Below, one piece after another: positions 11,496 to 13,527 of a DNA stretch of 13,527 nucleotides (positions are counted from its first letter, which is position 1; every line of letters begins with the position of its first letter). Source of the stretch: Chryseobacterium sp. (GTDB taxonomy: Bacteria; Bacteroidota; Bacteroidia; Flavobacteriales; Weeksellaceae); assembly GCA_003852805.1 (NCBI GenBank), contig RDDY01000281.1, positions 1 through 13,527 of the forward strand. Reading direction: 5' to 3'. Below the pieces are notes generated by a model, which saw only the letters and a program-made list of their open reading frames with translations, ran no database searches and was not told the DNA's origin. The position numbers and the translations under genes are program-made.

Positions 11496-12400
11496 AGCTG
11501 GGTGCGGATTTCGGTCATTACCTCGCGGCCCCCGTTATTCAACAAGAGTTCTGCGAGCATCTTACCATGAGTATCGGGTTCATGCCAGTCGAAGATTTCG
11601 TCCACCGAGATAGAATTTAGTCCGTCCAACGAGCATACTCGTCCTTGAAAACGCATCTCGTTGCCTTTCATCTCAGCAAAGGCCCCGATCGGCGCCGTAC
11701 AGCCGCCTTCCAAAATTTGGAGGAACTTGCGTTCGGTGTTTACGCAGTTCTCGGTTTCTTTATGGCTGATCTGTTGTAGACTTTCCAGTAGATCGGGATT
11801 GTTCTCCATCGCTGTTACGCCGATAACGCCTTGCGCCGGTGCGGGCAGCATAAACGGCAATTCTTCATAAGTTACATCCATGTCCATTCGGTTCAGGCCG
11901 GCCAAAGAAAGGAGGGTAGCGTCGGCCACGCCTTCTTCCAGTTTGCGCAATCGGGTCTGTACATTGCCGCGGATATCGCTGAAGTCCGCCTCAGGATATT
12001 GATTGAGCCAAAACGCTCGGCGACGCAGACTGCTGGTAGCGACCTTTAGTTCGTGCAGTTCTAAATTTTCTGCTTCTTTTCTTCTTATCAATACATCCTG
12101 CGGCCAGTCGCGTTCCAGAACTGCCGCCAGCAGCATCCCGTGAGGCAGCGCGGTCGGCACGTCTTTTAATGAATGCACGGCCAAGTCTATTTGACCGTTG
12201 ACCAGCGCAACGTCAAGGTCGCGCGTGAAAACTCCGGTAATGCCCAACGCATACAGCGGTTGCGACAGATTTTTATCGCCCGAAGAAACTACAGGCACCA
12301 GTTCGGTCTGCAAGCCCAAAGCTTGCAAGCGCGTTTCTACTTGCCGTGCTTGCCATAGGGCGAGCGGACTGTTGCGGGTTCCTATGCGTAGCGTTTTCAT
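11492..12400 (-). CDS. hemC: Porphobilinogen deaminase (hydroxymethylbilane synthase) HemC
   Basis: The enzyme condenses four porphobilinogen molecules into hydroxymethylbilane in the cytoplasm. All family landmarks are present in 302 residues: GTRNSPLALWQ (7-17), DLAVHSLKDVPT with catalytic Asp80 (72-83), ATSSLRRRA (121-129), DIRGNVQTRLRKL (142-154), APAQGVIGV (187-195), and LEGGCTAPIGA, where Cys234 carries the dipyrromethane cofactor. The ATG at 12400 overlaps the hemA stop (ATGA, 12397-12400), and the stop overlaps the hemD GTG. No hemB or hemL is in the window, so porphobilinogen synthesis must be encoded elsewhere. Nothing is unusual about this copy. Confidence 0.97.
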   Translation of the reverse strand: MKTLRIGTRNSPLALWQARQVETRLQALGLQTELVPVVSSGDKNLSQPLYALGITGVFTRDLDVALVNGQIDLAVHSLKDVPTALPHGMLLAAVLERDWPQDVLIRRKEAENLELHELKVATSSLRRRAFWLNQYPEADFSDIRGNVQTRLRKLEEGVADATLLSLAGLNRMDMDVTYEELPFMLPAPAQGVIGVTAMENNPDLLESLQQISHKETENCVNTERKFLQILEGGCTAPIGAFAEMKGNEMRFQGRVCSLDGLNSISVDEIFDWHEPDTHGKMLAELLLNNGGREVMTEIRTQL

Positions 12401-13527
12401 GACTTTTTGTGTGGTGAGTTTAGTATTTCGCCCAGCAGACTGCTTACGTCCTCGGCCCTATGCGGGTTGTCAATGATATATTTGGCGAAACGATTCGTCA
12501 GTTTTTGCAAGACCTTTTCGGTCAGCTTCATATCCTCAATCTCGGCGTAGCGGTGCTTGCGGTGAATATTGTGTAGCTCGTGACGCTCGATGCGCTTCAG
12601 TGCCGACTTAAATCGATAAATGTGCGGAACCAGTTTGCGCTTCTTTTCCCAGTCCAAGAAATCGTGCATCATTTCGCGGATGATTTCCTCTGCCTTGGGA
12701 ACTTCCTTTCGGCGCTGAATCATTGTTTCTTCTATCTGATCCGATAGTGCGTCTACATCAACCACATCAACACCGTCCAGCGCTGCAACTTCTTTGTCCA
12801 CATTGTTCGGGATGGAAAGATCGATGACGAGCATGCCGCGGTGCGGGAAATGTTCCTTTTTCAGAATGGGCTGCGGCGCTCCCGTGGCCACGATCAGGAT
12901 GTCGGTATCCGCCAACTCTCTTTGGTGTTGATTAAAGCCGATCTGTGGAATTTTGTATTTCTCTGCTATTTTCTCTGCCTTTTCTGCGGTACGGTTGGCG
13001 ATTTTGACTCTTGGTTGATGGACATGCTTCACCAAATTTTCGATGGTGTTCTGGCCGATCTCGCCCGTGCCCAATAGCAGGATATTCTTGGATGAAAGTT
13101 GCTGCTGAGTTTTGAGGATATAATGAACGGCAGCGTAAGAAACCGAGGCCGCGCCGTTGCTGATGCCGGTCTCGTTCTTGATCCGTTTCGATATTTGGAT
13201 GGCTGAATTGATGGCGCGCTCCAGATAAGGATTTGATTTTGTTTTGTAATGCTTGAACCGGTTGTAGGCGCTTTTGATTTGCGAGATAATCTCGAAATCT
13301 CCCAAGATTTGGCTTTCCAGCCCGGCAGCAACGCGGAACAGATGTTCGAGCGCATCCTCGCCTTTTTTTACGGAGACGTAACGCATGAAATCCATAAGAC
13401 CCACGCCCACGGTTTCGCAGAAAAGCTGCGCCACCAACATGTAATTGTGCGTGGTGGTGTAGATCTCGGTGGTCACCCTATCATAAAAAAAAAAAAAGCG
13501 CAGCCGCTCCAGCAGCGGCACGCGCGG
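12397..13527 (-). CDS. hemA: Glutamyl-tRNA reductase HemA, partial; N-terminus replaced at the sequence edge
   Basis: The NADPH enzyme reduces glutamyl-tRNA to glutamate-1-semialdehyde, the first committed step of C5-pathway tetrapyrrole synthesis. The reliable part runs from TEIYTTT near 13470 leftward to the stop. It includes LFRVAAGLESQILGD (substrate-binding region), the NADPH fold with LLLGTGEIGQNTI, ANRTAEKAEKIAEKY, ATGAPQPIL and VIDLSIPNNVD, and a C-terminal helical dimerisation region. The expected ~45 N-terminal residues and the catalytic-cysteine block STCNRTE are missing. In their place the frame reads LLERLRFFFFYDRVTTEIY, encoded by the suspect edge sequence. The GTG at 13521 should not be taken as a start. 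The stop overlaps the hemC ATG, so hemA is the first gene of the visible operon. Confidence 0.92.
   Translation of the reverse strand, partial: PRVPLLERLRFFFFYDRVTTEIYTTTHNYMLVAQLFCETVGVGLMDFMRYVSVKKGEDALEHLFRVAAGLESQILGDFEIISQIKSAYNRFKHYKTKSNPYLERAINSAIQISKRIKNETGISNGAASVSYAAVHYILKTQQQLSSKNILLLGTGEIGQNTIENLVKHVHQPRVKIANRTAEKAEKIAEKYKIPQIGFNQHQRELADTDILIVATGAPQPILKKEHFPHRGMLVIDLSIPNNVDKEVAALDGVDVVDVDALSDQIEETMIQRRKEVPKAEEIIREMMHDFLDWEKKRKLVPHIYRFKSALKRIERHELHNIHRKHRYAEIEDMKLTEKVLQKLTNRFAKYIIDNPHRAEDVSSLLGEILNSPHKKS
13457..13527. other. Probable sequencing-adapter/chimeric edge
   Basis: Positions 13457-13485 match the reverse complement of the Illumina P5 adapter at 26 of 29 bases, including an unbroken 18-base block GTGTAGATCTCGGTGGTC. 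Thirteen A follow (13485-13497), then 30 bases with 25 G/C (13498-13527), far above the rest of the window. The sequence interrupts a conserved gene at its most conserved motif. The adapter match comes from my knowledge of the adapter; the junction is seen directly. Confidence 0.8.

Follow-up and report, generated by a model that had tools for sequence, protein, structure and literature searches.

The window that we analysed is an entire contig of 13,527 bases (C148), which belongs to a 388-contig draft genome, G000 (2.16 Mb; 93% complete; 4.4% contaminated). At its right end lies hemA, the gene for glutamyl-tRNA reductase, on the minus strand. Read along that strand, the contig end consists of CCGCGCGTGCCGCTGCTGGAGCGGCTGCGC, T13 and ATGATAGGGTGACCACCGAGATCTACACC, and hemA follows. 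The reading frame is uninterrupted from 13527 to 12397. We assigned the following features in window coordinates:

12397 to 13456, minus strand: the genuine part of hemA, with its 5' end missing, assigned from Pfam domains, the HemA proteins of relatives and the public HemA protein P0002.
13185 to 13238, plus strand: a stretch with an exact copy in the final 54 bases of contig C152, where it is turned round with respect to hemA, making an inverted chimera across the gap in that gene.
13457 to 13470, minus strand: an overlap zone in which the 3' end of P5 falls on the TEIYT codons of hemA (relatives match at 10 to 12 of 14 positions) and true genome bases are indistinguishable from primer.
13457 to 13485, minus strand: an Illumina P5-like sequence matching at 26 of 29 positions, with a second copy at C70:3006-3034.
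13486 to 13497, plus strand: a poly-A of 12, to which the A at 13485 adds, read as the complement of the poly-T linker of a flow-cell oligo.
13498 to 13527, minus strand: a foreign fragment of a polyphosphate kinase gene (ppk; frame PRVPLLERLR) from a high-GC, Paracoccus-like organism, matching pFER4 at 29 of 30 positions.

The hemA product carries the Pfam domains GlutR_N, Shikimate_DH and GlutR_dimer. When the window frame, which has 376 residues, was compared to 30 relatives, matches were found in 23. Homology to the HemA of the 15 closest of these (66-74% identical) begins at its residue 19; among the eight more distant relatives, it begins at residues 19-20 in five and at residues 8-12 in three. 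The GlutR_N profile matches the frame only from profile position 48 onward. The cysteine in the STCNR block of HemA has a catalytic role, and this block is absent from the window HemA frame. In relatives, CNRT immediately precedes E[IL]Y at all 14 hemA loci that were read, and the 8 listed read DAFVVSTCNRTEIYT at this site. An earlier, sequence-only reading of this DNA had proposed that HemA homology, followed leftward, stops at TEIYTTT and that STCNRTE is no longer encoded before it. Both the residue 19 start in the closest relatives and the CNRT in every locus read are in agreement with that proposal.

For comparison with P5, we used the letters of the Illumina adapter sequence. Positions 13485 to 13457 match it at 26 of 29, the figure given by the sequence-only reading, and the runner-up site in the window reaches 17 of 29. 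The best match in 20 mononucleotide shuffles (one strand) was 20 of 29, and, by a random-base estimate, the chance that any place in the window would match at 26 or more positions is approximately 1e-8. About 14 of the 29 P5-matching bases coincide with TEIYT codons that are conserved by hemA itself. The first 15 P5 bases are the independent part, and here the window matches at 12 of 15 (random expectation approximately 1e-5 in that one register), whereas hemA of 14 relatives matches at 0-3. Over the last 14 P5 bases in the same register, the relatives match at 10-12, a similarity that is in line with the earlier claim that the RTEIYT codons naturally resemble the 3' end of the adapter. The unbroken 3' match of the relatives' hemA to P5 is 8 bases long in one of the 14 and 1-2 bases long in the other 13. 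Because the relatives resemble P5 in its last 14 bases but not in its first 15, where the window does, these data indicate that foreign DNA makes up the poly-A and the outer half of P5, and that the inner half is not divisible between primer and gene.

Flow-cell oligos carry a poly-T linker of 10 bases. In the window, the A run extends from 13485 to 13497 and is 13 long, with its first base falling on the first position of P5. It is the sole A or T run of at least 8 in the window, and it corresponds to the 13-T run that was said to precede P5, in P5 orientation. The P5-like sequence stops 42 bases short of the end of C148.

The outermost 30 bases are matched by Paracoccus plasmid records at up to 29 of 30 positions; in Paracoccus ferrooxidans pFER4, the locus is annotated as RNA degradosome polyphosphate kinase, and the translated frame is NPRVPLLERLRF. 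At an E limit of 10, 622 plasmid records match these bases at some level, so the source organism is not fixed, but a high-GC ppk gene is the best reading. A search allowing 3 mismatches gave no further copy of the tail in G000. The sequence-only reading had described these bases as 83% GC and foreign in appearance. The figure is correct and the ppk match agrees that they are foreign. However, a GC content of 80% is found in another 30-mer of the window, so GC alone is a weak sign of foreignness and the ppk match a better one. At the Paracoccus locus, two A's lie directly before the ppk stretch. A linker of 10 A's followed by this AA would give 12 A's, a sum that is consistent with the run but not diagnostic, because C70 has 12 A's and no ppk.

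When G000 was searched for P5 with as many as 3 mismatches allowed, two sites were returned, both near the right ends of contigs, on C148 and C70. The C70 match (C70:3006-3034) is 27 of 29 and lies 70 bases from the end of a 3,104-base contig, which terminates in GTGTAGATCTCGGTGATCTCCGTATCATT followed by A12 and a tail that consists mostly of G. In two-colour chemistry, poly-G past the end of the template is the no-signal call, and the tail of C70 looks as such a read should once it has passed the template. Across C70:3006-3104, the P5 complement, A12 and mostly-G tail are joined to the 3' portion of a gene. Relatives of this gene were found in 15 genomes (E ≤ 1.5e-6) with open frames of 599-666 aa, and its end suggests that it likely encodes an outer-membrane receptor. 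Of 14 relative loci, 11 were compared at the junction and just one of these encodes IYT there, so the natural similarity to P5 is weaker on C70.

The exact 13-mer GTGTAGATCTCGG occurs in G000 solely at the C148 and C70 ends, with four 1-mismatch sites elsewhere. Two sites of the exact 10-mer GTGTAGATCT, at C183:7828 and at C293:6775 (the latter 121 bases from the contig end), were considered as further P5 copies and rejected, as other sequence continues there. P7 was not found in G000 within 3 mismatches. We also surveyed contig ends of G000; 34 were listed, 1 masked end was dropped and 33 were examined, with 11 short contigs that have N at both ends excluded. Homopolymers of at least 9 were present only at the C148 and C70 ends among these 33.

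We extended the P5 search (up to 3 mismatches) to 320 genomes of the family. Only one had a match, G000 itself, leaving 0 of 319 others. The same sequence in an independent assembly had been named beforehand as counter-evidence to an artefact. It was found in none of these genomes, and P0002, which was compared at the protein level and has a gap of two residues there, contains no P5 peptide.

When G000 was probed with the HemA N-terminus of a relative, C152 gave a match (E 8e-4) at its right end, reading MQATVSTYNTSQFTVLSISF. The public HemA P0002 (416 aa, from a 138,653-base contig, source JGI) shares all 20 residues of the C152 N-terminus, and 349 of 353 positions are identical between it and window residues 24-376. 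At this level of identity, P0002 and the window HemA are probably from the same species. The N-terminus of P0002 contains MQATVSTYNTSQFTVLSISF and, further on, VATCNRT; its block reads VVATCNRT, which includes ATCNR. Since the first 20 residues of P0002 equal the end of C152, an assembly gap divides hemA between two contigs. The gap between C152 and C148 would span approximately 40 codons with one artefact on either side, and hemA itself looks ordinary. Frames of at least 80 aa from C152 had no blastp match at 1e-10 to the 12.7 kb upstream of hemA in genome G001, and the adjacency of C152 thus rests on the HemA N-terminus and not on synteny.

Both the apparent GTG start (13521) and the absence of the catalytic cysteine are consequences of the artefact, and there is no novel HemA here. 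The sequence-only reading had come to this view, and the near-identical P0002, with its cysteine block and normal-looking N-terminus, upholds it.

At C152:13096-13204, the first 20 hemA codons and the inverted copy of 13185-13238 are joined at a short shared stretch, which by eye is GTTTCGA. We also looked for inverted or direct copies of at least 20 of the last 80 bases within the same piece, and found these at 0 of the 33 G000 contig ends; a direct 14-mer self-copy was present at one of the 33, the left end of C70. This test is blind to cross-contig cases, since the C152 chimera copies C148 and not itself. In P0002, near residues 59-75, two residues are missing exactly at the P5-like site (CNRT-D-TTTHNYM). 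P0002 also differs from the window at two residues soon after this site and is otherwise nearly identical.

The end of C148 is almost certainly an artefact of library preparation and sequencing. That P5 and the poly-T linker are fused to hemA had been claimed from the window; the cleaner case on C70, the absence of the sequence from the 319 other genomes and the normal-looking N-terminus of P0002 now back that claim.

The cause was probably mispriming by the P5 PCR primer on the TEIYT codons of hemA. During library amplification, the primer would anneal to these genomic codons, which probably resemble its own 3' end, and yield molecules in which hemA is joined straight to P5 with no read-1 primer site. 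A read from the opposite side would then pass through hemA, the P5 complement and the poly-A from the flow-cell linker before running off the template. The 30 ppk bases after the poly-A may be signal from another template in the same cluster, or the read may be chimeric. Adapter trimmers target read-1 and read-2 stubs, which such hybrid molecules would not have. Lacking trimmable stubs, the hybrid read could have survived trimming and extended the contig into the hemA gap.

In public sequences, the P5 complement followed by A6 was found in at least 120 stretches of genome contigs and in 84 of viral contigs; the genome-contig sites are not independent, because many come from a few projects. Among 210 listed public sites, a coarse test found a TruSeq read-1 site before P5 in 132, a Nextera site in 48 and neither in 30, and several of the 30 stub-less sites show adapter remnants by eye. 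True contig ends lie within 250 bases in the reading direction at 186 of the 210, and 16 are near no known end. The C148 and C70 ends are like these public ends in having the P5 complement and then an A run, mostly by the contig end. They are unlike them in the read-1 site: 180 of the 210 have one, of TruSeq or Nextera type, in front of P5, and no such site lies between insert and P5 at either G000 junction. Poly-A length after P5 has a mode of 10 among the 210 listed sites; the 12 at both G000 sites is longer than the 10-base linker, though lengths of 11-13 are frequent among the listed sites. The P5 copies in G000 carry 3 (C148) and 2 (C70) errors, while 208 of the 210 listed sites have no error within P5. 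Some viral contigs, such as L163 (6738-6772) and L158 (5145-5179), contain the P5 complement and poly-A deep inside, with other sequence beyond, and these internal copies are probable chimeric joins.

If a normally ligated molecule had simply ended here, the read would have entered the adapter with no mispriming involved. Such read-through is the commonest public form, seen at the 180 listed sites with a read-1 site, and adapter sequence at contig ends has been documented (PMC11536531). It is nevertheless an improbable account of C148, because P5 joins hemA with no read-1 site and the genome has neither an exact TruSeq stub nor a Nextera stub. The exact TruSeq stub AGATCGGAAGAGC is not present in G000, where a search gave two 1-mismatch hits, both more than 3 kb from a contig end, and a reversed-pattern control gave one. 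A Nextera stub was not found in G000 within 3 mismatches. Mispriming is favoured over read-through on these grounds. These stub results fit data that were presumably trimmed, from which only molecules without stubs escaped.

A truncated P5 oligo attached directly to a fragment end, as in ligation of a broken adapter, would also leave the read-1 site missing, and it would suit C70, where natural similarity to P5 is weak in most of the relatives compared. However, the hemA frame and TEIYT run through the 3' end of P5 on C148, which random ligation would produce only by chance, and we regard this route as unlikely.

The sequence-only reading had offered mispriming or a false overlap as the cause. 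In a false overlap, the assembler would have joined adapter-bearing reads to hemA at the P5-like codons, and no hybrid molecule would have existed. The hemA codons and the 3' end of P5 do resemble each other. However, in the relatives only 10-12 of the last 14 P5 bases and 0-3 of the first 15 are matched, far below the usual assembler k-mer of 21 or more, and the same accident would be needed again at an unrelated gene on C70. Mispriming fits better, as both junctions lack a read-1 site, and the false overlap is unlikely. Finally, a real genomic feature, either a variant HemA without the catalytic block or P5-like DNA acquired by descent, agrees with the open frame from 13527 to 12397 but has practically no chance of being correct, given the normal block in the 349/353-identical P0002, the missing 5' part of hemA on C152, the absence of the sequence (up to 3 mismatches) from all 319 other family genomes, and the adjoining poly-A and ppk-like fragment.

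Moeller et al. 2024 (PMC11536531) report that adapter contamination in public microbial genomes is concentrated at contig ends. As on C148, the adapter in those cases lies at a contig extremity of a draft genome and breaks the assembly. That study counts the AGATCGGAAGAG stub, whereas on C148 P5 joins the gene directly and G000 has only two internal 1-mismatch AGATCGGAAGAGC hits. Because of this direct joining, a screen for the AGATCGGAAGAG stub would miss an artefact of the C148 type. Mispriming on adapter-like genomic sites has been described for RNA libraries in HITS-CLIP (Gillen et al. 2016, PMC4858895). There, as proposed for C148, a library primer acts on adapter-like genomic sequence and molecules are anchored at that site. 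The HITS-CLIP case concerns reverse transcription of RNA, whereas on C148 the step would be PCR of a DNA library with P5, and it is the assembly that is affected. Among the papers listed on P5 mispriming in DNA libraries, on linker poly-A and on adapters in databases, we found no account of this exact case, and the string TATTEIYT was not found in the literature searched.

Once the artefact is recognised, HemA will not be wrongly reported as lacking its catalytic cysteine. We recommend trimming 71 bases from the end of C148 and 99 from that of C70, and annotating hemA as partial. The finding of an adapter is correct and has housekeeping value only, and it concerns a kind of adapter contamination that would escape the usual AGATCGGAAGAG screens.

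Because the conserved TEIYT codons resemble the 3' end of P5, it is conceivable that hemA of this bacterial group is a standing hot spot for mispriming, with the gene broken or miscalled at the same codons across projects. The loss of two residues in P0002 exactly at the TEIYT site would agree with this. We searched with a translated P5 plus HemA probe, which returned 64 proteins among 3949 candidates, 9 of them HemA and 55 carrying an adapter peptide. None of these 55 is a HemA by motif, and P5 within 3 mismatches is absent from the 319 other family genomes. The hot spot is therefore doubtful.

The 55 proteins (P0010-P0064) are predicted proteins with adapter-derived peptides, for example NDTATTEIYTLSLHDALPI, and 54 of them also contain apparent peptides from the other adapter. 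With 55 of the 64 returned proteins carrying adapter peptides, adapter artefacts do reach protein collections.
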